The position numbers were made by a program, and so were the translations under genes. Below the pieces are notes generated by a model. It made no database searches and had not been told where the DNA came from. It saw only the letters and a list, made by a program, of their open reading frames with translations. This document shows, piece by piece, positions 5,249 to 18,851 of a stretch of 52,303 nucleotides of DNA. The DNA comes from Campylobacterota bacterium. GTDB lineage: Bacteria; Campylobacterota; Campylobacteria; Campylobacterales; Sulfurovaceae. The first letter of the stretch is position 1; the number at the start of each line of letters is the position of its first letter. The DNA lies in NCBI GenBank assembly GCA_003252535.1, contig QKDN01000021.1, forward strand, positions 1 through 52,303. The letters run 5' to 3'.

Positions 5249-5383
5249 CAGCATACCTTTATAGTCTGTGAAGAGTTGTGAAAAATAAGGCAGGATTCAT
5301 ACTGCACCCATCTAACCTCAAAGATACTGGTGAGAGTATATTGTACATCGAAGATATATAAAAAATTCTTTCATCTCCACGGG

Positions 5384-6568
5384 CTACCCGCCTACGACCC
5401 CCTGTCTCGATGCCCACTCCCCTACATCGCCCTTGGAGATCGCAGTCGCCATCATATCGGGGAAGATATCGGGGGTGCAGGCGAAGACGGGGACACCGAG
5501 CTGTTTGACCGATTTGGCGTTGGCGTGGCTGTAGTAGGGCTTGCCGTCGTCGCTGAGGGCGAGGAGGACGATCACCTGCACACCGCTGCTTTTCATCGCC
5601 CTGATCTTTTCGAGCATCCCTGCGGGTGAGCCCCACTCTTCAAGGTCGGTGATGAGGACGAGGATGGTGTCATTGGGCTTGGTGACGAGCCCCTGGCAGT
5701 AGCCCAGCGCTTTGTTGATATCGGTGCCGCCGCCGAGCTGCACGCCGAAGAGGAGGTCGACCGGGTCGTCGAGGTCTTCGGTGAGGTCGGCTACCTCGGT
5801 GTCGAAGACCACCATGCGGGTGCGGACGGTGGGGAGCGACGCCATCACTGAGCCGAATATCCCCGAATAGACGATCGAAGTCCCCATCGAACCCGACTGG
5901 TCGAGGCAGAGGATGATATCCTTGAGACTCTTGCGGCTCTTGCGCCCGTAGCCGTAGAGCTTTTGCGGGATGATGGTTCCGTACTCGTGCTGGTAGTGGC
6001 GGAGGTTCTTTTGGATCGTTTTGTGCCAGTTGATCTCGTTGTACTTGGGGCGGTGGTTGGTGACGCTCCTGCTGATCGCCCCGTTGATCGCCTCGATCAT
6101 GCGGTTCTCGAGCTTCTCCATCAGCTCCTTGACCACCTTGGCGATGACGAGGCGGGCGGTCTCCTTGGTCTTGGAGGGGATGAGCTTGCCCAGCTCCATC
6201 AGGGTGGCGACGAGGTGGACATTTGGGGTCGCCTTTTCAAGTATCTCTGGTTCGAGCATCATCTTGTCACGGAGCTTGGGGTGTTTGAGGGCGTCGTCCT
6301 GTATGATGTCGACCACCTGTGAGGGGAAGTAGCGGCGGATATCCCCCAGCCACCTCGCTATCGAGGGATTGGATGCGCCGCTTCCTGCTCCGAGCGTCCC
6401 GTCTTCACCGTGATAGTGGAACTTCTCTTCGCGTATCTCGTAGTCGTAGAGCGCCGAGAGTGCGATATCTTTTGCCAGCTCCTCAGGGCTGAGCTCGCAC
6501 CCTGTCCCGTCGCTCTCCTCACCTCCGAGGATCAGCCGCCATCGTTTGAGATTGGTATCGTTATGCAT
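5384..6568 (-). CDS. VWA-domain protein of the MoxR cluster (YehP-like)
   Basis: A 394-residue soluble protein whose C-terminal half is a von Willebrand A domain. The metal-binding MIDAS motif is complete: DQSGS (D223, S225, S227), GGGTD (T282) and ITDLEE (D308). The N-terminal half (about 1-210) is helical and of the CoxE type found next to MoxR ATPases. MoxR proteins are thought to act as chaperone-like motors on, or with, VWA proteins that bind metal and a target. The gene overlaps the DUF5682 gene upstream by 8 bp, so the two are translationally coupled. From memory, E. coli yehP is the counterpart next to yehL and yehM. What the cluster acts on is not known. Confidence 0.87.
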   Translation of the reverse strand: MHNDTNLKRWRLILGGEESDGTGCELSPEELAKDIALSALYDYEIREEKFHYHGEDGTLGAGSGASNPSIARWLGDIRRYFPSQVVDIIQDDALKHPKLRDKMMLEPEILEKATPNVHLVATLMELGKLIPSKTKETARLVIAKVVKELMEKLENRMIEAINGAISRSVTNHRPKYNEINWHKTIQKNLRHYQHEYGTIIPQKLYGYGRKSRKSLKDIILCLDQSGSMGTSIVYSGIFGSVMASLPTVRTRMVVFDTEVADLTEDLDDPVDLLFGVQLGGGTDINKALGYCQGLVTKPNDTILVLITDLEEWGSPAGMLEKIRAMKSSGVQVIVLLALSDDGKPYYSHANAKSVKQLGVPVFACTPDIFPDMMATAISKGDVGEWASRQGVVGG

Positions 6569-8750
6569 AGTAGAGCCATCCTTTTATCTTCTCCAGTGAG
6601 TGTTCGGCGCGTGCGGTATCGAACTCGACCTGCTGCTGTTCATCCGTTTCACCCTGTCCCAGTCCCGCCTTGGCTTTGGCGCCGAGGTCGCGGCGTATCT
6701 TGGGGTCGTACCCGCTGAATGTCCGCCGCAGGATCGGGAGGATATGGTCGAACTCCTCATCGCTCAGCCCCTCGAGCCATCCGTAGAGGATGTTCCAGAG
6801 GTTGTCATCGATCAGCAGGATCACCGCGCTCCCTTCGAGCAGTCCCTCGATCCAGTAGACAGAGTCGAGAGTGTCCGCGCCCGTGGAGAGTGCCTGCGAG
6901 AGGAGGAGTTTGAGCTCGTCCAGCTCCAGATGCTTGGCATTGAAGAGGAGGCTTGTGATCCGTCCTCGGATCAATGTCGGCATCGTCATATCCCTCGCGA
7001 TGCTCTCCAGAGTCCTGATCCATGCATCGTAGCGCTCCTGCTCCTCTATGAGCCGCATCTCTTCGTGGAGCGAGGCGATGAGGGTGAGGAGCTCTTTGGC
7101 GCTGGTATACTCGAGTCCGTAGCAGGCGTTGGGGAGGTTGACCGTGATCTTGACGATGAGCGCTTCGATGAGGGTTTCGAGGATCGATTTGTCGAGCTTG
7201 CGGATATCGTCGTAGCGGGAGATCACCATCAGCGGCAGGAGGGTGGCGATGAGCTGGGAGACATCGTGGCTGAGGGAGATGAGGGCATCGATCCGCTCGA
7301 TCAGGAAGGAGACGCTCTCGAAGAGTCTGGCGGTGAGCGAGAGGTCGATCAGTCTGCCGAGCTCCACGCTGTCCTGCGAGCGGGCTGCCATATCTCTGAT
7401 GTAGTTCTGGGTGGCGGATTCGACGCTGTTGCCCCAGATCGCCTTGTCGATCAGCTCGAGTTCGTAGCCGGGCTGCCACTTGAGCACCCACACCTCCTTG
7501 AATGTTCCTTTGGTGTGGCTCGCTGCCAGTCTCCCCCACGGGAGCCCGAGTATGGCGAGGCGGTGGAGGAAGATCGACTTTGCTAGGTGTGTTTCGTTGC
7601 GCAGGTCGAGGGTGTAGCTCTTCTCCTCGTCGAGCTTCTTGAGGCGGTAGCTTTTGATCGACGCTTCGAAGTCCCCCAGCAGCGGGAGGGTGGAGCTGTT
7701 CTCGGGGACTTTGCCGATCGCTTTGCCGACGATGAGCTCGTCGCGGATGAGGTCGAGGAGTATCTCGTCCCCTTCGCACATCACGGTGAGGATGGCGTCG
7801 CTCAGCTCTCTCAAACCTGCACGGCTGAGTCCCCGCAGTGCCGCCAGCGAATGGGCGGTGCGGAGGGTCTCGATGGTGTGGGCGGTGGAGATATCCATCT
7901 TGCGCTTGCGGAAGAGTTTGGAGGCTTTGTAGAGCCAGATCGTACCGTCATCCTCGGGGTAGCGGTGGAGGTAGTCGTACCACCCCGCCGAGTCGATCCC
8001 CGCGCCGTATCCCGAGCGCCACGAGAGGCGGGAGTTGAGCCACGGTATCCATGTGGTCTCGACCTTGGCGGAGGGGAGACCCTTGATCAGCTCTTTGTCG
8101 GCTTTGGCGGGGATATCGGCGTAGGCTTCGAGGGCGGGGGCGTGCCACGCGCCGCAGACGAATACCACCCGCTCCCTCTTCGCCCCTTTCGCGCTGCGGA
8201 TCGCCTCGCGCATGAAGGCTTCGCGGATATCGTTGTACCCGTCCTCCCTCCCGTAGTGCTCCCGCAGTGTCCGCATCAGCACCATCACCGCCTCGAAGTG
8301 TTCGGCGGGGTCGCTGCGCCGCTGCTCGAAGCGATGCTCCCACCACAGCTCGCCGCTCTCGTACCCTTCGAGTCTGGCGATCTCGTCGATAGGGTGGGTC
8401 TGCTCCCCGACCCCTTCGCCCTCCTCGCGGGTGTAGCCGAACTGGAATTTCAGCGGCATATCCGCCATCGTATACTCCACGCCGTGCTCCTGCGCATAGA
8501 GCAGAGCCTGCCACTCGGGCGAATAGGCGGCATAGGGGTAGAAGAGCGACTGCGAGAGATCGGCGGGGTTGTAGCCGAGTATCGCCACGGGCGGCTTGAA
8601 CTCTGTGAGGTCGACACCTGCCACCGTATCGGTCAGCTCGACAGGCCCCTCGATGATGATATGATCGGGTTTGATCTCATACAAACGACGCAATAGATGC
8701 GCACCCGAGCCGACACCGTGATGGCGGATACCGAGGATATGGAGGTTCAT
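6561..8750 (-). CDS. DUF5682 family protein of the MoxR cluster (YehM-like)
   Basis: A 729-residue cytoplasmic protein with no signal peptide. The opening MNLHILGIRHHGVGSGAHL, followed by IIIEGP and later VFVCGAWHAPAL, is the signature I associate with DUF5682; these motifs resemble the EreA/ChaN/TraB-type fold with His and Glu residues that may bind a ligand or metal, but no enzymatic role is established. The remaining two thirds is helical. It is followed by the VWA gene with an 8-bp overlap. Upstream, where a gene of the same cluster would be expected, lie REP repeats and a transposase, so this gene has probably been separated from its original operon by insertion. The Shine-Dalgarno is AAGG. 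Confidence 0.85.
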   Translation of the reverse strand: MNLHILGIRHHGVGSGAHLLRRLYEIKPDHIIIEGPVELTDTVAGVDLTEFKPPVAILGYNPADLSQSLFYPYAAYSPEWQALLYAQEHGVEYTMADMPLKFQFGYTREEGEGVGEQTHPIDEIARLEGYESGELWWEHRFEQRRSDPAEHFEAVMVLMRTLREHYGREDGYNDIREAFMREAIRSAKGAKRERVVFVCGAWHAPALEAYADIPAKADKELIKGLPSAKVETTWIPWLNSRLSWRSGYGAGIDSAGWYDYLHRYPEDDGTIWLYKASKLFRKRKMDISTAHTIETLRTAHSLAALRGLSRAGLRELSDAILTVMCEGDEILLDLIRDELIVGKAIGKVPENSSTLPLLGDFEASIKSYRLKKLDEEKSYTLDLRNETHLAKSIFLHRLAILGLPWGRLAASHTKGTFKEVWVLKWQPGYELELIDKAIWGNSVESATQNYIRDMAARSQDSVELGRLIDLSLTARLFESVSFLIERIDALISLSHDVSQLIATLLPLMVISRYDDIRKLDKSILETLIEALIVKITVNLPNACYGLEYTSAKELLTLIASLHEEMRLIEEQERYDAWIRTLESIARDMTMPTLIRGRITSLLFNAKHLELDELKLLLSQALSTGADTLDSVYWIEGLLEGSAVILLIDDNLWNILYGWLEGLSDEEFDHILPILRRTFSGYDPKIRRDLGAKAKAGLGQGETDEQQQVEFDTARAEHSLEKIKGWLYYA

Positions 8751-8794
8751 AGGCAGCCTTTTTTGATGGGATATTTATTGTTGTTGGAGCAATT

Positions 8795-8860
8795 GGTGGA
8801 ATTTTTCCACCCTACGGTGATCGTGGTATTGCCGCCATTCGTAGGGTGGATGCAATCCAC
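8795..8860. repeat. REP pair, GGTGGA-stem type
   Basis: 8795-8815 is GGTGGAATTTTTCCACC plus CTAC and 8841-8860 begins GTAGGGTGGATGCAATCCAC; stems are 7 bp with 3-nt loops. This is the form that flanks the nearby transposase. Confidence 0.85.
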
Positions 8861-8920
8861 TGTTTGTTGCGTGTGTCGGGTCAATTCCAAATTACAATCT
8901 GACTTTGAACTGTAGCGGTT

Positions 8921-8988
8921 GGTGGAATTCTTCCACCCTACGGGATCTGTGACATTTTTTACCATTTGTAGGGTGGATGCAATCCACC
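8921..8988. repeat. REP pair, GGTGGA-stem type
   Basis: 8921-8941 (GGTGGAATTCTTCCACC plus CTAC) and 8968-8988 (GTAGGG plus TGGATGCAATCCACC) form an inverted pair directly downstream of the transposase gene. Confidence 0.87.
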
Positions 8989-8996
8989 GTCTGCTC

Positions 8997-9524
8997 CTAC
9001 TCAAAGTCAATATTTGCATCGAAGTCTCCCCAGTTTGGATCGTAAAACCCTTTATCGACAAACTTTGAAAATGATGAAAATTCCCAATCGCTGACTTTCG
9101 TCACATGGTCATGTTTGACAGGGTTGTAATGGATATAGTCAAGCCGCACTCGATAGTCCTTCTCATCACGGATCGTGTGCTCAAAAAATCGTTTTTGCCA
9201 GACAGGTTTGTAGCCTTTTTGATGACGGCTATCTGACTGATAGAGATGCTCGTAGTAGCGCTCTTCACAATGCTCTGAAAAGTACTGCTTTATCGATCGG
9301 ATGATATAGGGATAGTCATCCGCATTTTGAGGTGTGATGATCGTGTGAAAATGCTCCGGCAGTATGACGATGGCATCGATATTGTATTGAAACTTCTGTT
9401 TGCTATGGTCGAAACTTTTACGAAGGAGTTCAATATTGTCGATGAGAATAGGATTTCTTTGATGGGTGACTACGGTGATGAAATAACTGTAACCATCCAA
9501 AAATATCCTTCTGTAGTTTGCCAT
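8997..9524 (-). CDS. REP-associated tyrosine transposase (RAYT)
   Basis: A 175-residue HUH-type single-strand transposase of the IS200-related RAYT family. The metal-binding pair is H58 and H60 (ILPEHFHTII), followed by WQKRFFEHTIRD and the catalytic-tyrosine motif LDYIHYNPVKH, with Y130 aligned from memory to Y115 of the E. coli enzyme. These proteins cut REP hairpins and are thought to spread them. Consistent with this, REP pairs lie on both sides (8795-8988 and 9557-9623). Start supported by AAAGG upstream. The gene appears intact. It belongs to the block that separates DUF5682 from the DUF4132 gene. Confidence 0.93.
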   Translation of the reverse strand: MANYRRIFLDGYSYFITVVTHQRNPILIDNIELLRKSFDHSKQKFQYNIDAIVILPEHFHTIITPQNADDYPYIIRSIKQYFSEHCEERYYEHLYQSDSRHQKGYKPVWQKRFFEHTIRDEKDYRVRLDYIHYNPVKHDHVTKVSDWEFSSFSKFVDKGFYDPNWGDFDANIDFE

Positions 9525-9556
9525 TTTTCAACCTTTTTCTATTCGCTGCAACGATT

Positions 9557-9623
9557 GGTGGAATGCTTCCACCCTACGGTGATCGTGGTATTGCCGCCAT
9601 TCGTAGGGTGGATGCAATCCACC
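9557..9623. repeat. REP pair upstream of the transposase
   Basis: 9557-9577 is GGTGGAATGCTTCCACC plus CTAC and 9603-9623 is GTAGGGTGGATGCAATCCACC in two arms. A compensated stem change (central GC) compared with the other copies indicates the hairpin is what is conserved. Confidence 0.85.
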
Positions 9624-9684
9624 GTTTTGCTCCATATGTCATTCCGATTACAAATTGTAAACTGTTCTTGAAACCGCAGCGGTT

Positions 9685-9705
9685 GATGGAATTCTTCCAC
9701 CCTAC
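9685..9705. repeat. single REP unit (unpaired)
   Basis: GATGGAATTCTTCCACC plus CTAC, a lone copy with one stem mismatch and no inverted partner nearby. It is preceded by the same flanking words (gcggttgatgg) that precede other pairs, so it looks like half of a decayed pair. Confidence 0.7.
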
Positions 9706-9735
9706 ACATCACTTTCACTTTGATCTCCCACGGTT

Positions 9736-10677
9736 TCATTGGTGTTTGGTAGTGCCAAACCTACCAGATTTTCGAATAATAAACTGAATTATCCACCAAG
9801 ATACAATGAACACAAGTGGAGAAATAAGCATCTTTTCCCAAAGTGAAAAATTGTTGAGACTCAACCAATGCTCCAACAGTGTCACCAGAGAGACACTTAT
9901 GACGAGCAGTATCACGGTCATGATTCTTCTCAGATTATCGGCTTTCTTATACACTTCGTGCCACTCTTTGTTATTTGTTTCTTTCCATGCTCGATATTCT
10001 TCATTTTGTATGGTTTCGATCTTGGTATCTCCCCTATATATACTTACGATGGCTTGTGGATAACGGCGAATGAAAGCATTGGTATAGCTTTTTGCTCTTT
10101 TGAGATCAAGGAACTCTTTTTTGACAAATGCATCATCCGCACCGATCTTTTGTGTCAACCCATAGTTGGTAAGTGCATGTCCATGATGATCTGTAAAATG
10201 GAGAGTATAGATTTGTTTTGATCTTAGATACTCTGCTTCTTCTAACTCATCCTGTTTATCTGAAATATCCCATCCGTGAAAGAATGGACAGACAACTGTT
10301 TTGTAATTTTTGATTCTCTCTGCGAGTATCAATGAATCTGGAATATCTTTGACGATGATATTATGTTTTTGTAACTGTGTCAGAAGTGTACGAGTAAAAT
10401 GAGGATAACATTCATACTCTATATTTTGATTATGAGTGATATTATAAAACTTGAGTTCAGTATCACTTCCTTTGTTCGTACTACTATCTTTTGACATGAG
10501 TATCAATAAAATATTTTTATCATCACGGAACCGATATGCAATACGACTAATATCTTCAAAGGTAAATACATGATCGCATACAAGTCCCACATGAAGAATC
10601 AATCTATTATCATCAATGCTGATCTGTTTGCTATTACCGCCACACTTTGTCATCCATTCATGTCTTGAAGTTTTCAT
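9736..10677 (-). CDS. hypothetical protein with two C-terminal membrane helices
   Basis: A 313-residue protein not recognised. The first 240 residues are soluble-looking (beta-rich start, then charged helices including IRRYPQAIVSIYRG); two membrane helices follow (about 250-268 and 285-303), so it is probably a tail-anchored cytoplasmic domain. AT-rich codon use sets it apart from the core genes, pointing to transfer. The last residues (GRFGTTK) are encoded by a REP-like hairpin at 9744-9765, so the original C-terminus may have been lost. It has a clear AAAGGG before the ATG and its own flanking REPs. Function unknown; its place among transposase, toxin-antitoxin and RhuM remnants suggests accessory or defence-type cargo. 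Confidence 0.7.
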   Translation of the reverse strand: MKTSRHEWMTKCGGNSKQISIDDNRLILHVGLVCDHVFTFEDISRIAYRFRDDKNILLILMSKDSSTNKGSDTELKFYNITHNQNIEYECYPHFTRTLLTQLQKHNIIVKDIPDSLILAERIKNYKTVVCPFFHGWDISDKQDELEEAEYLRSKQIYTLHFTDHHGHALTNYGLTQKIGADDAFVKKEFLDLKRAKSYTNAFIRRYPQAIVSIYRGDTKIETIQNEEYRAWKETNNKEWHEVYKKADNLRRIMTVILLVISVSLVTLLEHWLSLNNFSLWEKMLISPLVFIVSWWIIQFIIRKSGRFGTTKHQ

Positions 10678-10742
10678 TTAATCCCTTTAGTTACTGTGAC
10701 TTGAAACACCATTCTGCACGCTCTTCATCGACCGAAACAGAT

Positions 10743-10889
10743 GGTGGAATTCTTCCACCCTACAGTAATCGTGGTATTTTTGTCATTCGTAGGGTGGATG
10801 CAATCCACCGTTTGCTGTATATGTCGTGTCAATTCCAAATTGTAATTTGTCTTTGCACTGTAATGGTTGGTGGAATTCTTCCACCCTAC
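10743..10889. repeat. REP pair plus third REP unit
   Basis: Units at 10743-10763 (GGTGGAATTCTTCCACC plus CTAC), 10789-10809 (GTAGGG plus TGGATGCAATCCACC) and 10869-10889 (as the first). The spacing between the first two matches the other pairs. Confidence 0.85.
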
Positions 10890-10920
10890 GGCAACCTTTT
10901 CCTTTATCATCAATCAAATC

Positions 10921-10998
10921 GTTTGGCAGTGCCAAACCTACGGATCTCGCAGATATCCCCGAACCCGGGGCATTCGTGAACTCTCATGACTTCAAGCT
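10921..10998 (-). repeat. 78-bp repeat, copy A (ends in REP-like hairpin)
   Basis: Nearly identical to 11418-11495. On the minus strand it runs AGCTTGAAGTC..., contains a CCCCG-GGTT-CGGGG hairpin and ends in the hairpin GTAGGTTTGGCACTGCC plus AAAC. It forms the C-terminal codons of the truncated RhuM. Confidence 0.85.
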
Positions 10999-11051
10999 CA
11001 TGCTCCATCATTCTCTCCTTCTGAGTACGCGATGGCATAGCGCCATGTGGA

Positions 11052-11080
11052 GTGGTATGTTCCAAAATGGAACATACCAC
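11052..11080. repeat. 29-base perfect palindrome
   Basis: GTGGTATGTTCCA and TGGAACATACCAC are exact 13-base arms around AAA. It is coding for VVCSILEHTT of RhuM, and the family frame breaks immediately after it. Confidence 0.8.
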
Positions 11081-11248
11081 TTTCTCACTCAATTCATCAC
11101 TCTTGAAAATATTATTAAGGTGTTTGGTAATGGCAGGTCTTTGCACATCAAACAGGTCGGCGATCTGTTGCTGACTCAACCAAAGCGTATCTTTTTCGAC
11201 TGTGGCTTCTATAGAAACGACACCATCCTCATAGATCACAATCTCACT

Positions 11249-11312
11249 CATCCCTCACCCTCTCACGATCGCTTCGAGGTCGCTGATGACCTCAGAGTAG
11301 ATGATATCGGGG
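11249..11312 (-). repeat. duplicate of the DUF4132 gene 3' end
   Basis: These 64 bases match 12140-12203 except at three positions. All three fall at third codon positions and leave the encoded tail (DIIYSEVISDLEAIVRG) unchanged. The two copies are direct repeats bracketing the toxin-antitoxin block. Confidence 0.9.
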
Positions 11313-11401
11313 TTATAGTCGCATTTAAACCTCGGTGAAAAATTAAACCCCTGCCGATGAATATTCTTATACTCCTCAACCCACAAATAGACCAGTTCCA
11401 T
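11255..11401 (-). pseudogene. fused remnant: ATPase start joined to DUF4132 tail
   Basis: A 48-residue frame. It begins MELVYLWVEEYKNI, then GFNFSPRF, which looks like the first 30 residues of a RecF/SMC-like AAA ATPase of the kind often found in defence islands. After about residue 31 it continues as IIYSEVISDLEAIVRG, identical to the last residues of the DUF4132 protein at 12146. The ATG has a proper AAAGGA 6-7 bases upstream. I read it as a deletion joint: an ATPase gene lost all but its start, and what follows is the tail of a second DUF4132 allele. It probably has no function of its own. The ATPase assignment rests on a short stretch and is tentative; the DUF4132 part is certain. Confidence 0.72.
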
Positions 11402-11417
11402 ACTTTTCCTTTAAACT

Positions 11418-11495
11418 GTTTGACAGTGCCAAACCTACGGATTTCGCAGATATCCCCGAACCCGGGGCATTCGTGAACTCTCACGACTTCAAGCT
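11418..11495 (-). repeat. 78-bp repeat, copy B (ends in REP-like hairpin)
   Basis: Second copy of the 10921-10998 repeat, with hairpin GTAGGTTTGGCACTGTC plus AAAC. On the minus strand it begins inside the last codons of the antitoxin gene, supplying SLKS and the stop. Confidence 0.85.
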
Positions 11496-11780
11496 AGTAA
11501 ATTCCACTTTGAGCTCATGTCCCGTAGCGTGGGCGTAGTCCATCAGCGTCGTGATCTTCGGCGCGGCCTCGTAGGTGAAGCTCTCGAGCCTGGAGATATT
11601 GCTCCGCTTGGTATGCATGATCTGCGCGACCTGCTCCTGTGTGAGGTTCGCGCTTTTCCTCATCGCGATAAGCTGCCTCTTGATCTCGTAGAGAGGCTTG
11701 AGCGCATCGTAGCGCTCTCTCACCTCATCATCAATCAGCGCCTTTTTCTTGAAATCTTCATACGCCGGTCTCTCATCCAT
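11481..11780 (-). CDS. HigA-type antitoxin (XRE helix-turn-helix)
   Basis: A 99-residue antitoxin-like regulator. The helix-turn-helix sits at about 43-75 (LTQEQVAQIMHTKRSNISRLE), preceded by a helical N-terminal part that usually wraps the toxin. The start at MDERPAYEDF is preferred over an upstream in-frame ATG because AAAGGAG lies 7 bases before it and because it overlaps the toxin stop by 8 bp. Toxin-first order is characteristic of HigBA. Such antitoxins bind the toxin and repress the pair's promoter. Its last four codons come from a repeat, so the natural C-terminus may be altered. Confidence 0.88.
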   Translation of the reverse strand: MDERPAYEDFKKKALIDDEVRERYDALKPLYEIKRQLIAMRKSANLTQEQVAQIMHTKRSNISRLESFTYEAAPKITTLMDYAHATGHELKVEFTSLKS

Positions 11781-12105
11781 TTTCCAACTCCTTTTTCCTT
11801 TTTTTCGCCAGTTCGAGGTCTTTTTTGGGGATCGCATTGCTTTTTTTGATGAAGCTGTGCAGGATCACCACTTCCTTGTCAATAACGGTGCAAAAGATAC
11901 TTCTGGCGATCCCTTCGCGCCCTTTGGCACGGAACTCGAAAAGCCCGTCTCCCAGCGGAGCCGAATGAGGTCTGCCGAGGTTCGGCCCGAACTCCTCGAC
12001 GAGATCGAAGATGCTCAACAGATCGGCCAAAATACCTTTGGGAAGTGCCAGGGTTTCGCTCTCAACCTTATGGTTGAAGAATGATATTTTCCACTTTTGC
12101 TCCAT
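11773..12105 (-). CDS. HigB/RelE-superfamily toxin (Gp49-like)
   Basis: A 110-residue RelE-fold toxin of the phage-derived Gp49-like/HigB type: motifs LLSIFDLVEEFGPNLGRPHSAPLGDGLFEFRAKG, then IARSIFCTVIDKEVVILHSFIKKSNAIPKKDLELAKKRKKE in the expected order (beta-hairpin, basic core, C-terminal helix). Family members cleave mRNA on the ribosome. It is the first gene of the pair, 40 bp downstream of the DUF4132 stop, with AGGA before the ATG. The pair looks intact and is flanked by direct repeats of the DUF4132 3' end, so it could stabilise or mark this locus. Confidence 0.88.
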   Translation of the reverse strand: MEQKWKISFFNHKVESETLALPKGILADLLSIFDLVEEFGPNLGRPHSAPLGDGLFEFRAKGREGIARSIFCTVIDKEVVILHSFIKKSNAIPKKDLELAKKRKKELENG

Positions 12106-12139
12106 CTGTATGTTATCCTAAAAGATACTTTTTGTCAAT

Positions 12140-12203
12140 CATCCCTCACCCTCTCACGATCGCCTCAAGGTCGCTGATGACCTCGGAGTAGATGATATCG
12201 GGG
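12140..12203 (-). repeat. DUF4132 gene 3' end, intact-copy side of the direct repeat
   Basis: Partner of 11249-11312; includes the last 19 codons and stop of the intact gene plus TCAATC-side bases. Confidence 0.9.
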
Positions 12204-14692
12204 ATGTCTTTGAGCGGGACTTTGGCGAGATAGTTGCCGATCTTCCTGAATGCCGTATCGTATATCTCTGCCTCTTCGTCCTCCCAGTAGTAGACGAAAA
12301 GCCCGCCGACACCCAGTTCGATATAGAGATCGTACTCCGGGTACTCTCTGTAGTAGACCGCCATCCCTGCGTCCATCGCTTCCTTTTGCCATCCTTGTTT
12401 TTCGAGGTAGCTTTTGATAGTCGATGGGGTGCGTTTGGGCTGCATCCCCGTGTAGGCGGTGATCTCTGTCTGTTCCCGCTGCTCTGCGGGGACTCTGTAG
12501 ATCGTGCGGTGGAGCTGGGGGAAGGGTTGGTTGAGCTCGAGCTCGTAGAACTTGTCGATCCACTCTGAGAGCTGTTCGGCAGAGAGTCTCAGGGGGTGGA
12601 CGATACCGATCCGCTCCCCCTCCGCGAACTCGATCTCCTCGTCCCCGATATCGAGCACCGAGCTGTCCTGATCGACATAGAAGAGCCTGCCGAGGTTCCC
12701 CTCGCTGTCGTATGTCCCCCACAGCAGCGTCGAGGTGTAGACGAAGATCAGCGGATTGGTGAGGTAGAACGCTCTCCAGCTCTCCTCGTCCCACCGCCGC
12801 TCGATCATCATGTAGTATTCGAGCCTGTCGCCCTGTGATCTGTTGGCTTCGCGGATGAGCTTCTGTATCTCCTTGACCTGCTCCTTCTGCTCTTTGGAGG
12901 CGGCTTTGGGGAGGGATTTGAGTATCTTGTCGTCCTCGTCGATGTAGCGGAGCTTGAAGTCGTCGGCGATATAGACGCGGTACTCGTGCCCGCCGATATC
13001 GAGGATCAGCGTGAGCCCGTCGAAACCGAAGTCGGGGATGAGCTGGTCGAGGAGCTCGAAGTAGCTGAGCCCCTGCTCCCTGGCGTAGAGGGTGAGGGCT
13101 TCCCTGGCGGTGTCGGCGATGGAGGCTTTGGACTTGTATTTCTTGGTGAGGTAGTCGAGGTAGCGCAGCGAGCCCATCGAGTCGATGAGGGCGACGGCAT
13201 GGACGAGATACTGGAGCATCTTGATCCGCTTCTCCTCGAAGAGGGCGTTGAAGAGCTTTTTGAAGTGGTCGAGCAGCGCCTCGTCACCCAGCAGCGCAGC
13301 GAGAGCGAGGTAGTGCTTCTGCGCCGCTTTCGCCCCGCCGTCGAGGAAGGTCTGGAGCAGATATCTGGCGAACGCACCCGAGCGGCTCTTGTCTATATGA
13401 GCAATGAGGAGCCTGGCCTCGGGATCGGACTCGATCGCCTTGATAAACCCCATGCGGTAGAAGAGGAATCGCACCATATCGCCGTCCAGCTCTTCGCCGT
13501 TCATCAGGTAGAGCGGCGGCAGGGAGGACTCATCGAGCTCCTTCTCGCTCCACTTCTCAAGCTTCTTTCGCGCTTTGGCATGGGCGATGATCTCTCTGAC
13601 TTCTTCGAGGGAGTAGGGTCTGCCGTAGAGCTTCGCCGCGATCTGGGGCATGATCACCTCCCTGACCTTCTTGTCATCCTTCTCATGGTGGAAATTGGCA
13701 AGGACGAGATCGAGGGCTTCGGGGGTTTTGAGTTCTAGGAGGGTGAGGTAGCCGACGATGCGCTCGTCCGCTTTTTTGCTCAGGATGGATGACTGGGCTT
13801 TGGGGAAGGCTTCGTTGGGGTGTTTGGCTAGAACCTTGACTAAAAGTAGTTTATTGTCATGGTTTATTTTTATTCCAAAACTAAAAATCTTATCTATATG
13901 TGTTAGCCAATTAATCTTACGAATAAATTGAATTACATTACTATAATATCCAACATCATGGTGTTTTACTGATAAGATGGTATCAAGTAATTCAATAGCT
14001 TTTTCATCTAAAAGCTCCCATGTCTTTAAAGGAAGTTCACTGCGAATAAAAGTTGATGTTTTAATATGTTCAACTAATCTGTTAGCTAATTCTTCTTTTG
14101 AATAAATTGTGCTTAAAATACTAAAAAGATATAGGCTAAAAGGTATTGCAGGTGTGTTGGTGCGAACATACTGTTCATATTTAGGTGTATCATTCAGATA
14201 ATGATTTGCTAACCGGATAAATTCATCCTTGTAAGTGATATCAAAAGAAGAGAGCTTGTGTAGTAGTTGCATAAAATTCACTAGTCGATTATCTAAATAA
14301 TAAATATCATGTGGATTGTAAGTTAAAAATTCAATTCTAAGTTTTTCTAAATAAATATTTAATACTTTCTTATGCATAGAAACAGTATGTTCAATGAATT
14401 GATTGTAATCATTAATGTTTTCTAATAAAAAATCTAAATTTCTTGTAGTGTCTGAGTTTGGTTCAAAAAATACTAAGTTAACTACTTTAAGAGGCACTAT
14501 ATTCTTTAAATCATTGAGCACTTTCGTATAAAAATAAAAATCATTTGCTTTTCTGTATGTGATTTTATATACTTTTGCATCGTTCAAAAAATAACTTTTT
14601 ATATCAGTCAATGTGACTTCAGAAAAATGCTTGGCATAGGTAGCTTGATAATGCTTTTCTATAATTCTTTCAATCTCTTCTCTCTTACCCAT
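12146..14692 (-). CDS. DUF4132-type protein of the MoxR cluster, mosaic gene
   Basis: An 848-residue protein. The start at MGKREEIE is chosen because AAAGGAG is 6 bases upstream. The C-terminal two thirds is helical-repeat followed by the DUF4132 core, with LILDIGGHEYRVYIADDF and a basic EQKEQVKEIQKLIREAN segment near 590-640 and a terminal domain ending SDLEAIVRG. DUF4132 proteins (E. coli YehI/MolR type) occur with MoxR, VWA and SWIM genes. The gene is a mosaic: codons 1 to about 283 (13843-14692) are strikingly AT-rich and encode an unrecognised Asn/Tyr/Leu-rich helical region, while the rest is as GC-rich as its neighbours. It follows the MoxR gene after a degenerate REP pair. Likely role: sensor or adaptor of the cluster, by inference only. 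Confidence 0.78.
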   Translation of the reverse strand: MGKREEIERIIEKHYQATYAKHFSEVTLTDIKSYFLNDAKVYKITYRKANDFYFYTKVLNDLKNIVPLKVVNLVFFEPNSDTTRNLDFLLENINDYNQFIEHTVSMHKKVLNIYLEKLRIEFLTYNPHDIYYLDNRLVNFMQLLHKLSSFDITYKDEFIRLANHYLNDTPKYEQYVRTNTPAIPFSLYLFSILSTIYSKEELANRLVEHIKTSTFIRSELPLKTWELLDEKAIELLDTILSVKHHDVGYYSNVIQFIRKINWLTHIDKIFSFGIKINHDNKLLLVKVLAKHPNEAFPKAQSSILSKKADERIVGYLTLLELKTPEALDLVLANFHHEKDDKKVREVIMPQIAAKLYGRPYSLEEVREIIAHAKARKKLEKWSEKELDESSLPPLYLMNGEELDGDMVRFLFYRMGFIKAIESDPEARLLIAHIDKSRSGAFARYLLQTFLDGGAKAAQKHYLALAALLGDEALLDHFKKLFNALFEEKRIKMLQYLVHAVALIDSMGSLRYLDYLTKKYKSKASIADTAREALTLYAREQGLSYFELLDQLIPDFGFDGLTLILDIGGHEYRVYIADDFKLRYIDEDDKILKSLPKAASKEQKEQVKEIQKLIREANRSQGDRLEYYMMIERRWDEESWRAFYLTNPLIFVYTSTLLWGTYDSEGNLGRLFYVDQDSSVLDIGDEEIEFAEGERIGIVHPLRLSAEQLSEWIDKFYELELNQPFPQLHRTIYRVPAEQREQTEITAYTGMQPKRTPSTIKSYLEKQGWQKEAMDAGMAVYYREYPEYDLYIELGVGGLFVYYWEDEEAEIYDTAFRKIGNYLAKVPLKDIPDIIYSEVISDLEAIVRG

Positions 14693-14714
14693 GCTTCTCT
14701 CCTTTGTCATTTTT

Positions 14715-14780
14715 GGTGGAATTCTTCCACACTACACCAATGTGACATTTTCGTTATTCGCAGGGCGGATGCAATCCACC
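14715..14780. repeat. degenerate REP pair between MoxR and DUF4132 genes
   Basis: 14715-14735 (GGTGGAATTCTTCCAC, foot changed to ACTAC) and 14760-14780 (GCAGGGCGGATGCAATCCACC split in two arms) keep the pair spacing but both feet are mutated, so this is an older insertion than those at 8.8-10.9 kb. Confidence 0.75.
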
Positions 14781-14790
14781 GTTTTATCCA

Positions 14791-15867
14791 TCACACCAAC
14801 TCTTTACACGCCAGATAGATATCTCTGAACTCGGGGCGTTTTTTCATGACGCTCTCCATGTATTCGGTGAAGACGGTCTTGTCCTCGACGGGGTCTTTTA
14901 CGATGGCTCCGATGAGGCTGGCGGAGATATCGTCAGAGCTGAGGACGCCGTCGCCGAAGTGTGCGGAGAGGGAGAGTCCCTGGTTGACCACCGAGATCGC
15001 TTCGGCGGTGCTGAGCGTGCCGGAGGGGGATTTGAGCTTGGCTTTGCCGTCCGTGGTCAGGCCGTGGCGGAGTTCGCGGAAGATAGTGACGATCTTCTCG
15101 ATCTGGGCGAGGGACGACTCCTCGAGCGGGAGGTCGAGAGCCCGGGAGGTGGAGGCGACGCGGCGGCGGATGATATCGAGCTCCTCTCTCTGCGTGGCAG
15201 GGGTCGGGAGGACGACGGTGTTGAAACGGCGTTTGAGCGCGGATGAGAGCTCGTTGACCCCTTTGTCGCGGTTGTTGGCGGTGGCGATGAGGTTGAACCC
15301 TTCGACCGCCTCGATCTGGGCGCTGAGCTCGGGGATCGGCATCGACTTCTCGGAGAGGATCGTGATGAGGGTGTCCTGCACCTCGGCAGGGACGCGGGTG
15401 AGCTCCTCGAACCGCACGATGCGCCCTTCTCTCATCCCCTTCATGATCGGCGTCTCGACCAGAGCCTCTTCGCTGGGGCCTTTGGCGAGGAGCTGGGCGT
15501 AGTTCCACCCGTAGCGGATGGCATCTTCGCTCGTACCCGCCGTCCCCTGGATCAGGAGCTTGGAGTCGCCCGAGATGGCGGCGGTGAGGTGCTCGCTCAC
15601 CCATGATTTGCCCGTACCCGGCACGCCGTAGAGTAGCAGCGCGCGGTCGGTGGTGAGGGTGGCGATGGCGATCTCCATGAGCCGTTTGTTGCCGATGTAC
15701 TTGGGGGTGATCTCGAAGCCGTTCTTCAGCCTTCCCCCTATGAGATAGGTGAGCACGGCGTGGGGGCTGAGCTGCCAGTTGGCAGGGCGGTGGCGGGTGT
15801 CGTCTATTCTGAGCTCGTCGAGCTCCTCGCGGTACATCTCTTCAGAATGCAGTCTGAGTCTGTTCAT
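14791..15867 (-). CDS. MoxR-family AAA+ ATPase (YehL-like)
   Basis: A 358-residue AAA+ ATPase. Walker A GVPGTGKS (81-88), Walker B region IVRFEEL (150-156), sensor-1 IATANNRD (N198-N199) and the arginine-finger stretch ALKRRFN (R213/R214) are all present. The Walker B has FEE where most AAA+ proteins have (D)E. MoxR proteins form hexamers and work with VWA-domain partners, here the gene at 5384. The gene overlaps the DUF5691 gene by 4 bp (ATGA) and has GAGGAG before its ATG, so it is in the SWIM-DUF5691-MoxR operon. From memory it is closest in context to E. coli yehL. Substrate unknown. Confidence 0.92.
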   Translation of the reverse strand: MNRLRLHSEEMYREELDELRIDDTRHRPANWQLSPHAVLTYLIGGRLKNGFEITPKYIGNKRLMEIAIATLTTDRALLLYGVPGTGKSWVSEHLTAAISGDSKLLIQGTAGTSEDAIRYGWNYAQLLAKGPSEEALVETPIMKGMREGRIVRFEELTRVPAEVQDTLITILSEKSMPIPELSAQIEAVEGFNLIATANNRDKGVNELSSALKRRFNTVVLPTPATQREELDIIRRRVASTSRALDLPLEESSLAQIEKIVTIFRELRHGLTTDGKAKLKSPSGTLSTAEAISVVNQGLSLSAHFGDGVLSSDDISASLIGAIVKDPVEDKTVFTEYMESVMKKRPEFRDIYLACKELV

Positions 15868-17429
15868 TGTTTCTCCTCTTGTAGTGTAGTAAATGCTTTT
15901 TTGATCCGTTCTATTTCAAATAGAGTTTCGTAGAGATTGGAACTGTAGTAGTTCGTGCCGTTCTTCGCCTCGACGATAGCGATGAAGTCGTTGTCGAGGT
16001 AGGGGGCGCAGCGCCAGAGGTCGCCCTTGATCGAGTTGTCGGCGTAGCGTCCAAGCGAGTGGCGGAGGATCGTCTCGGTGAACTTTCGGCTCCATTTGTG
16101 CGTGAACCCGAGTTCGCGGCTGACGAAACGAAGCAGGTTTTGGTTGGGGTCGAAAGCATCGATATGCTTGATGATGAACTCTTTCGCATTCTCCTCGCTG
16201 AGGAGTTTCAGAAACCCCGGTGTGATCAGATCGAACCGGCCGCGTCTGAAAAGCTCCAGAGCGGCATCCCGCTCCCCGTACTTGATGAGGTTGGTATCAA
16301 GCGCGCCGAGGTAGTTGAGGTGCTCGATGGTGTTGGTCGCTTTCGCCTTTGAGACCTGCGGTTTGACAGCTGCGATCGCATCGAGCGCTTTGGCTAGCGG
16401 CAGGTCGAAGCGCTCCGCCCAGCGGCCTGGGGGCACGACGGTGATGACGAAGTAGAGGAGCCTGTCGATCCCTTCGAGGTCTCGGGGGTAGTCGTAGTAG
16501 CTCTCTGCGGCGAGGGGTTCGAGCGGTGCGAGGAGTGTGGTGAGCTCGTCAGTATCACGCAGTACGAGCTTCCCTCCACTGCCGCCCATCACCGAAGCGA
16601 CCATCGAGCCGAGTTTGCTACTCTCCCTGCGCCAGATCGGTGCGAAATAGTGCTCGAAATACTCCCCGAAGAGGGGGCTGGCGGGGTCGTTCAGCTCCAG
16701 CAGTGTGAGGGTGCGGAGCATCGAGTCGTAGGTCTGGCTCTTGCTCCCCATCGCTGTCACTTTGTCCCTGAAATAGCCGAAGAGCTGTGGATTGGGCTGT
16801 CTGTTCCTGTCGTAGAGGAGCTTGAGGTAGCTGAACCGGGTCGAGATATTCTCCGCATCGATGAACTCATCGAGGAACGCTATCGCGCTCGGGGCATCCT
16901 CCATGATCTGTGTGAAGTGTGTCCTGCGCTGTGCGCTGTTCATATCGAGGGTCTCAGGTGTCAGTTCGCTCTTCTGGCTATAGAGCCATCGACCCCTTTC
17001 ACCGAAGGCTTCGTAGATCGCAAGGTCGCCCGATGTGTACTTGAGCTTCTGGCTGAGGGGGAAGAGGAGCTCGGGGGAGAGTATCTCGTCTCTCTCCCGC
17101 AACAGACCGCAGAGTGCCGGGAGGTAGTATGCGCTTGCTTCAGCCGATGCGGCGAGGAGTAGCGTGAGAAAGTCGTGGTACTCTCCGGGGGCGTATGTGA
17201 GCGTCTCTGCGGAGCAGACGGGCATTTCGCTGACCCCTTCGAGCTTAGGCAGTTTCGATCCGCTCTCGATATAGCGGGTGTAGAGGGTGAGGGCATCGAG
17301 GAGGGTCTCCTCGTCGCTAGGGGAGGGGCGGAGGCGCTCCCGTACAGCTTCGGGGAGGAGTGCGCTATCGAACTTGATGTTTTTTGTCCCCAGCAGCGCG
17401 GGTTTGAGGATGGCGGGGTCGAGTCTCAT
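15864..17429 (-). CDS. DUF5691 family protein of the MoxR cluster
   Basis: A 521-residue, largely helical soluble protein. The GERGRWL motif (about 144-150) within a series of helical repeats is what I associate with DUF5691, a family that is almost always adjacent to a SWIM protein and a MoxR ATPase. No catalytic residues are evident; an ARM/HEAT-like scaffold is likely. It overlaps the SWIM gene upstream and the MoxR gene downstream by 4 bp each, the tightest coupling in the cluster, so the three products are probably made in fixed ratio and form a complex (inference). Confidence 0.82.
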   Translation of the reverse strand: MRLDPAILKPALLGTKNIKFDSALLPEAVRERLRPSPSDEETLLDALTLYTRYIESGSKLPKLEGVSEMPVCSAETLTYAPGEYHDFLTLLLAASAEASAYYLPALCGLLRERDEILSPELLFPLSQKLKYTSGDLAIYEAFGERGRWLYSQKSELTPETLDMNSAQRRTHFTQIMEDAPSAIAFLDEFIDAENISTRFSYLKLLYDRNRQPNPQLFGYFRDKVTAMGSKSQTYDSMLRTLTLLELNDPASPLFGEYFEHYFAPIWRRESSKLGSMVASVMGGSGGKLVLRDTDELTTLLAPLEPLAAESYYDYPRDLEGIDRLLYFVITVVPPGRWAERFDLPLAKALDAIAAVKPQVSKAKATNTIEHLNYLGALDTNLIKYGERDAALELFRRGRFDLITPGFLKLLSEENAKEFIIKHIDAFDPNQNLLRFVSRELGFTHKWSRKFTETILRHSLGRYADNSIKGDLWRCAPYLDNDFIAIVEAKNGTNYYSSNLYETLFEIERIKKAFTTLQEEKQ

Positions 17430-18727
17430 AGCGATAGTGTCCTTTGGTCATAGTGGATGGCGAGGAGGCGGTACCCCTCGGCTGACTTCACCACGAAGCC
17501 GTCGAAGCGCTCGCCGCGTGTGAGGATCAGGAGCTTGAGATATTTCTCATCGCCGAAGCTCTCGATCGGGACATAGCGCCCTGCCGTATCGACGAGGAGA
17601 TAGCTGTGACCGCTCTGCACTACCCTCAATTCTGCAACGAAAGCGAGCTCTTCGTAGAGGAGGGGGAAGGTGTCTCTGGCATTGTTGAACCGCTCCTGTG
17701 CCAGTGTGAGGTCGGGCAGCGGGTTCAGCACATCGTCCGGCGCGCACTTCTCCCCCTTGACCTTGACGATCGCGCGGGGCTGGAGGGAGCCGAAGTAGAG
17801 GAGCTTCGCCTTGAAACACTCCCCCTCCATATAGAGCTTCTCGAAGATACCGTTGTAGGAGAAGTCGAGGATCAGCGCCCAGCTGCCGCTCTCGACCCCG
17901 TAGAGATAGACTCTGCGGGAGGTGAGGTTGTCGAGCTCGTCGTAGCGGATGGAGACGACGTGCCAGCGGTCTTCCGACATCTTCGCCCCGGTGTCGGCGA
18001 GGAGCTCCTGTCTGGTGCGGTTCCATCCGAGGATCTGCTCCAGTTCGCCCCGTACTTCGTCGCTGATCTTGTCATGGCTGCGCGCCGCTCTGACGATGAG
18101 GTGGAGCGAGGTGAGGACTCCGAGTATCTGCTCCCGGTGGGTGGCGGCTCCGTAGTCGATCGAGGCGAGGGCGTTGAAGTAGCGGTTGAGTCCCGCTATC
18201 TTCTTGTCGACCATCGCTTTGGCGTGGTTCTGCCAGTAGGCCGCGTCCTTGTTGGCGAACTCCAGTATCCCACCCTTCATCGCATCGGAGAGGAAGAGCT
18301 CGATGTACTCGATATCGCTCTGGAGACTCTCCCATCTGGAGAGGGATTTCTGCTCGATCTGCTCCTGGGTTTTGGGCGGGGCTTTGGGAGCGGCGGCTTT
18401 GGCAGAGCGTTTGTCGATCCACTCTTTGACCCATTCGGGCTCCTCGGCTGCGGCGATCTGCTCTATGGTGTGGTGGGCGAGGTAGAATCCGAGTGCAAGC
18501 CCGTGCTTGCAGGGGAACTTGCGGCTGGGGCAGGAGCATTTGAAGGCTATGGAGGAGATATCCATCGCGCAGAGGTAGGGCCTGGAGCCGCTCCCCTTGA
18601 TCGCGCTCCAGAGTGCGCGGTCGCTGCGGTAGACCTCCCACGGGGTCTTGTTGAAGATGGTCATGGCGTTCTTGTTGGAGGCCTGGTCGGGGGCGAGGGC
18701 CTCTATCTGGGCATGTGTCACTGTCAA
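17426..18727 (-). CDS. SWIM zinc-finger protein of the MoxR cluster
   Basis: A 433-residue protein with a SWIM zinc finger near the N-terminus: C64-x-C66-x6-C73-x-H75 (CSCPSRKFPCKH). The rest is helical and charged, without other known motifs. SWIM fingers bind DNA or protein. The start is the TTG at 18727, with AAGG 8 bases upstream; an in-frame ATG at 18799 lies upstream of the -10 box at 18758-18763 and so cannot be in the transcript. It is the first gene of the minus-strand operon SWIM-DUF5691-MoxR-DUF4132. From memory E. coli YehQ is the SWIM member of the yeh cluster. Confidence 0.88.
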   Translation of the reverse strand: MTVTHAQIEALAPDQASNKNAMTIFNKTPWEVYRSDRALWSAIKGSGSRPYLCAMDISSIAFKCSCPSRKFPCKHGLALGFYLAHHTIEQIAAAEEPEWVKEWIDKRSAKAAAPKAPPKTQEQIEQKSLSRWESLQSDIEYIELFLSDAMKGGILEFANKDAAYWQNHAKAMVDKKIAGLNRYFNALASIDYGAATHREQILGVLTSLHLIVRAARSHDKISDEVRGELEQILGWNRTRQELLADTGAKMSEDRWHVVSIRYDELDNLTSRRVYLYGVESGSWALILDFSYNGIFEKLYMEGECFKAKLLYFGSLQPRAIVKVKGEKCAPDDVLNPLPDLTLAQERFNNARDTFPLLYEELAFVAELRVVQSGHSYLLVDTAGRYVPIESFGDEKYLKLLILTRGERFDGFVVKSAEGYRLLAIHYDQRTLSL

Positions 18728-18757
18728 TTGGCTAACCTTGTCGGGGTGATGGCGGAT

Positions 18758-18763
18758 ATTATA
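18758..18763 (-). promoter_or_regulatory. -10 box of the SWIM-MoxR operon
   Basis: TATAAT on the minus strand, preceded by a long T-rich stretch as in Campylobacterota promoters. It gives a leader of about 20-25 bases before the TTG start at 18727. Confidence 0.65.
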
Positions 18764-18851
18764 ATAAAAAAAAATCCGAAATCGATAATACGGTATCAAA
18801 ATCGCGAATTTTTTTCAAAAGCGGTAACAGGAGACAAAAGTTCCCTTTTGT

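Follow-up and report, generated by a model that had tools for sequence, protein, structure and literature searches.

An AT-rich head joined in frame to a GC-rich core in a Campylobacterota DUF4132 gene suggests exchange of the head by recombination

The DUF4132 gene on contig QKDN01000021.1 of a Campylobacterota bacterium exhibits an abrupt change of composition inside one intact reading frame, and an exchange of its N-terminal head by recombination is well supported by sequence comparison. The contig was taken whole as the window (52,303 bases), and it belongs to a 2.92 Mb draft genome of 77 contigs with an estimated completeness of 99.95% and contamination of 0.14%. The account favoured here, with a probability of roughly two in three, is that the gene would be a recombinant of two DUF4132-family sources and that its protein would serve as an adaptor with a target-meeting head.

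The gene is part of a cluster on the minus strand with the order SWIM, DUF5691, MoxR, DUF4132, a 3.4 kb insert, DUF5682 and VWA-CoxE, as shown in Table 1, the order being interrupted at 8750-12146, between DUF4132 and DUF5682. The DUF4132 protein is a member of the PF13569 family (131.9 bits, cut-off 27), and with MoxR, VWA-CoxE, DUF5682, SWIM and DUF4132 co-located, the locus belongs to the YehI-YehM or Saprospiraceae type of cluster, where SWIM was counted as a member by synteny, its model score standing 0.1 bit below the cut-off. The frame could open at 14710, and the protein is probably 848 aa long with its start at 14692, because a ribosome-binding-like AAAGGAG stands immediately before the ATG at that position, which upholds the start given in the earlier note. 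At the cluster end, the VWA gene is adjoined by a gene (2732-5254) whose product of 841 aa has a weak cadherin-like domain besides its RCC1 repeats, about 14 in number.

Table 1. Coordinates and properties of the features of the DUF4132 locus in the window.
Feature	Position	Strand	Properties
VWA CoxE-like protein	5384..6568	-	PF05762 153 bits
DUF5682 protein	6561..8750	-	PF18934 677 bits
RAYT (REP-associated tyrosine transposase)	8997..9524	-	In the insert splitting the cluster; NF047646 155.9 bits, cut-off 80
Duplicated 3' end of DUF4132 gene	11244..11312	-	94% identical to 12135-12203
DUF4132 gene	12146..14710	-	One open frame, 854 codons, without frameshift
GC-rich constant core	12146..13837	-	GC3 0.81; 45-47% identity to nearest Saprospiraceae cores
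DUF4132 domain PF13569	12389..12928	-	132-136 bits, cut-off 27
Composition junction	13820..13844	-	Codons 289-297 of the 854-codon frame; change-point 13836
AT-rich head	13838..14692 (from likely start)	-	GC 0.27, GC3 0.21
REP-like element	14696..14784	-	Two palindromes; between MoxR and DUF4132 start
MoxR-type AAA ATPase	14791..15867	-	AAA_5 120 bits; 73% identity to L140 ortholog
DUF5691 protein	15864..17429	-	PF18944 54.7 bits
SWIM zinc-finger protein	17426..18799	-	SWIM 19.5 bits, cut-off 19.6; synteny with Saprospiraceae SWIM genes

The GC content along the gene, taken per 300 nt, reads 0.28, 0.28, 0.28, then 0.57, 0.59, 0.60, 0.59, 0.56 and 0.54, and GC3 rises from 0.21 to 0.81 across a few codons. 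The change-point was placed by maximum likelihood on third positions at 13836, with a 2-log-unit support interval of 13820-13844, confirming the shift without frameshift in a single 854-codon frame that had been put at about 13843. Both the 300-nt series and codon usage bear the step out; the head lies at a codon-usage distance of 0.45 from its own core versus 0.12 from AT-rich Saprospiraceae DUF4132 genes. The junction falls immediately before and inside the motif LAKHPNEAF, whose E. coli counterpart is LLKYPEHAI. The step (2lnLR 305) is by far the sharpest in a host-genome sample of 119 open frames that could be tested; next come a step of 102, in an ORF sharing bases with a second one and probably given a wrong start, and one of 48. 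Background composition was obtained from sampled stretches of the host genome, which exhibit a GC of 0.524 and a gene GC3 with a median of 0.73 and a 5th percentile of 0.42; the head is regarded as the foreign side because of that median. The neighbouring MoxR, DUF5691, SWIM and DUF5682 genes have GC3 values of 0.75-0.85, like the core and unlike the head, so that the description of the head as unlike any other part of the cluster holds for these neighbours and fails for the adjoining insert, where an ORF at 9736-10677 displays a GC3 of 0.33 and a codon usage resembling that of the head. This ORF encodes an AT-rich protein of 313 aa with a C-terminal hydrophobic stretch and has no match in Pfam, NCBIfam or PADLOC. 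Steep steps in the Actinobacteria genes L064, L068 and L087 were discounted, since these open frames are over-long and lie in very GC-rich DNA.

The head was found to be related to the heads of other family members over part of its length. Residues ~147-283 match an HMM of Saprospiraceae DUF4132 heads with 31 bits, a score reached by 0 of 2000 shuffles. For residues 1-190 taken by themselves the similarity to ortholog heads is marginal, 36 of 2000 shuffles doing as well. Alignments with Saprospiraceae proteins begin before the step, at query residues ~161-255, with ortholog homology collinear across the join. The predicted structure is poor for residues 1-200, and from residue 210 on (pLDDT 71-93) its predicted helical repeats, forming an alpha-solenoid, continue through the join; structure comparison returned generic HEAT/ARM-like solenoids alone, none with E below 1e-3. 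Since the last ~140 residues match ortholog heads and the predicted solenoid crosses the join, the head is best read as a divergent homologue of family heads over that stretch, and a homologous region would have been exchanged, with no unrelated domain attached. The replacement of the head by recombination, as proposed in the earlier note, is strongly supported by the step at synonymous sites and by the lack of a donor within the genome, and is amended in that the incoming piece appears to be a homologue rather than an unrelated domain.

The cluster as a whole is, judged by its distribution, a horizontal import foreign to the order. Outside this genome no DUF4132 was detected in 399 genomes sampled from the order and no DUF5682 in 200 other genomes of the order, and the closest relatives of the cluster are Saprospiraceae clusters with equal gene content and order. 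A genome scan with a single protein query yielded no relative, whereas an alignment-based scan did find relatives. No second head copy, donor or silent head cassette was found in the host genome by protein and DNA searches, and no donor copy of the head in the sampled relatives; an allele predating the exchange did not turn up either. Searched on its own, the head had no useful match among plasmids, phages and viral contigs; a partial match to a phage tail gene (27%, E 6e-3) was taken as chance.

Differential conservation was observed along the Saprospiraceae orthologs. The pair L141 and L142 shares 46.7% identity in the head, 82% in the core and 93% in MoxR, three other pairs have cores of 70-71% and heads of 28-34%, and over the pairs with cores 70-83% identical the heads range from 19 to 48%, varying with the alignment and the stretch taken. 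In conservation the head stands at or near the bottom of the system parts, DUF5691 being likewise very divergent (20-30% in distant pairs). Synonymous sites are saturated equally in head and core, and fast evolution is therefore inseparable from exchange in these genomes; identity climbs gradually from head to core without a single step. The orthologs do not share one head and one composition step: the heads differ in every ortholog, and a strong step occurs in one of eight, L135, which belongs to another Saprospiraceae genome and has another head; its GC3 rises from 0.23 to 0.43 at contig-protein residue 317 (292-336; 0 of 200 permutations as strong). Headless DUF4132 proteins of ~500 aa also occur naturally, such as L143 4663-6159 and L144 128-1639, the L143 gene lying directly between MoxR and DUF5682. 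In the Saprospiraceae ortholog L088/L010 (G504:C50:85405-87744), one in-frame TAG is read through in the head region.

A comparison of 5,426 E. coli genomes covered the DUF4132 gene that lies between metG and yehI. The core was covered to at least 80% in 5293 of the 5426, with identities of 93-100% in nearly all matches listed, and in front of it stand two variable blocks, V1 and V2, each existing as discrete alleles; 4010, 682 and 149 genomes carry the respective types of V1, and 624, 3371 and 869 those of V2. The loci L006 and L150 have V1 in common and differ in V2, with 94%, 35% and 96% identity along the gene and sharp edges, while L146 and L147 have V2 in common and differ in V1; the two blocks thus recombine independently and give mosaics. 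Conserved residues keep the same codon in 29-49% of cases in the V1/V2 blocks versus 87-95% in the core, and because synonymous identity collapses inside the blocks, the variation argues for block exchange, beyond mere rapid divergence of the protein. V2 has its end at a position equivalent to contig-protein residue 268-272, ~20 residues from the contig step (289-297), and the three borders, those of E. coli, of L135 and of the contig protein, lie within ~50 residues of one another. The general idea of a variable head on a constant core, put forward from the contig alone, is borne out in kind by the sharp-edged allelic blocks of E. coli and by the L135 step at the corresponding place. The tandem paralog yehI is far less variable, and the neighbouring paralog was rejected as the source of V1 and V2 through conversion, copy A being ~16-37% identical there. 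The metG-yehI region (L145-L152) carries two or three tandem DUF4132 genes according to the strain; in L148 some 250 residues, V2 included, have been lost as one block, and L149, from the O157:H7 strain ECP19-798, contains two broken copies.

The surroundings of the gene are rich in repeats and debris. REP-like double palindromes (GGTGGATTGCATCCACC ... GGTGGAAGAATTCCACC) gather at 8774-10894, around the RAYT, and are found again at 14696-14784; the insert with the RAYT holds five or six REP-like units besides the element at 14696-14784. The 15-mer core of the REP has 10 perfect copies genome-wide, 4 of them on the contig, including one shortly before the DUF4132 start. The AT-rich tract has its upstream edge (14752-14763) within the REP-like element at 14696-14784 and no REP at its downstream edge, so that REP/RAYT elements as the route of head transfer stay a conjecture. 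The 69-base duplication of the DUF4132 tail flanks a toxin-antitoxin-like pair (Gp49/HigB-like and HTH), with the second tail copy attached after the opening part of a different gene, a layout that resembles the insertion of a cassette at the 3' end of the DUF4132 gene. A 105-base direct repeat (86%) lies at 10894-10998 and 11391-11495, within the 3.4 kb insert.

The favoured account would run as follows. A GC-rich DUF4132 gene, native to the horizontally acquired MoxR/VWA/DUF5682/SWIM/DUF5691 cluster, would have received a homologous, very divergent head from an AT-rich relative, joined in frame. The DUF4132 protein would act as the adaptor of a MoxR-AAA/VWA machine, with an N-terminal alpha-solenoid that might meet a changing target, be it a client, a component of an invader or an antagonist, and a constant C-terminal part that would couple to the ATPase. 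Selection for new binding surfaces would then drive the head swaps, while the coupling part would have to remain unchanged. The head may recognise something; that DUF4132 heads form the recognition repertoire of an immune-type MoxR-vWA machine, in which cross-species head exchange and the V1/V2 shuffling of E. coli would be HsdS-like with an alpha-solenoid as the reader, is a tentative extension about which we are more doubtful than confident.

Other explanations were weighed against this account. A single neutral accident, in which the AT-rich head arrived by chance in a mosaic rich in mobile elements and head diversity reflects weak constraint on the N-terminal solenoid, is unlikely; a locus full of REP elements, a RAYT, toxin-antitoxin genes and a duplicated gene tail agrees with it, as do the divergence of DUF5691 and the equal synonymous identity of head and core in Saprospiraceae, but the few discrete alleles of E. 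coli, with sharp edges and saturated synonymous differences in a nearly constant gene, are not expected from weak constraint alone, and the closeness of the three borders speaks against it as well. That the head is instead the target of phage or competitor inhibitors, which allele exchange escapes, seems rather improbable; an exposed module that varies on a constant core, its alleles at intermediate frequency, would be expected under this explanation just as under recognition, and no inhibitor is known. Misassembly of two unrelated sequences is suggested by a draft of 77 contigs and the extreme composition contrast between the two sides, and is very improbable given the frame intact over 854 codons, the collinear ortholog homology and predicted solenoid across the join, the completeness and low contamination of the genome, and the rarity with which a chance join would fall in frame at a homologous residue. 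That no exchange took place, the step resulting from a local constraint such as a preference for AT-rich codons or the head's amino-acid composition, is scarcely credible. Many family members do have a head slightly richer in AT than their core (GC3 difference on average -0.03, sd 0.055, in 117 DUF4132 genes of other organisms), but the -0.60 found here lies more than 10 standard deviations off the family mean, and amino-acid make-up cannot account for a step at synonymous sites.

The exchange of the head is of interest beyond this contig. DUF4132 proteins are widespread in bacteria, nearly all E. coli included, and their function is unassigned; repeated exchange of one part, set against a constant rest and a constant ATPase partner, points to the part that meets something changing, and a domain of unknown function becomes a recognition hypothesis testable in laboratory E. 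coli with several natural alleles. The metG/DUF4132/yeh region of E. coli has been described as an insertion hot spot (PMC9334617), and MolR/WGR proteins have been discussed in passing (PMC8533742). No report of variation of the DUF4132 head was found in the open full-text library searched.

Among the known systems, the Saprospiraceae SWIM-DUF5691-MoxR-DUF4132-DUF5682-VWA clusters (L011, L140 and L141) have the genes and order of the contig and DUF4132 heads far more divergent than their cores; they differ in longer DUF4132 proteins (~960-1005 aa, with a head of 390-430 aa), in being AT-rich throughout save for L135, and in a cluster without the insert. The YehI/MolR-type cluster of E. coli (metG-yehI-yehK-yehL-yehM) has in common with the contig the DUF4132 core, the MoxR-like ATPase (yehL) and DUF5682 (yehM), as well as variable N-terminal blocks on a constant core, whereas its DUF4132 proteins are ~1210-1265 aa long, occur in two or three tandem copies with two variable blocks, and in the variable genes open with a WGR domain; the contig protein, of ~848 aa, has one head only, lacks WGR and is partnered by DUF5691. 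MoxR-vWA pairs are described as switches in ternary conflict systems, whose remaining modules are exchanged and diversified (Kaur et al. 2020, PMC7159879), and MoxR AAA, vWA and a third component are present here as there. In those systems VMAP, iSTAND and others supply the third component, the text of that paper contains neither DUF4132 nor DUF5682, and the contig cluster falls outside the VMAP/iSTAND type, with no VMAP or iSTAND match in the cluster proteins scanned and bpMoxR below threshold (20 of 27 bits). PADLOC did not assign the cluster to known anti-phage defence systems, with no match for DUF4132, DUF5691, DUF5682 and VWA, and weak partial matches for MoxR and SWIM alone. Polymorphic toxin systems carry a variable C-terminal toxin domain and an adjacent immunity gene, whereas the variable part of the contig protein is N-terminal and its head contains no toxin domain by Pfam, which places the protein outside that class. 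The specificity subunits HsdS of Type I restriction systems possess exchangeable target-recognition domains (TRDs). Their two variable blocks between conserved segments assort independently among strains, as in the E. coli DUF4132 gene; the contig cluster is without restriction or methylase genes, and what varies is a predicted alpha-solenoid in place of a TRD. What is shared is a variable block swapped on a constant frame, as seen in the V1/V2 mosaics of E. coli, the synonymous collapse inside them and the step in the contig gene.
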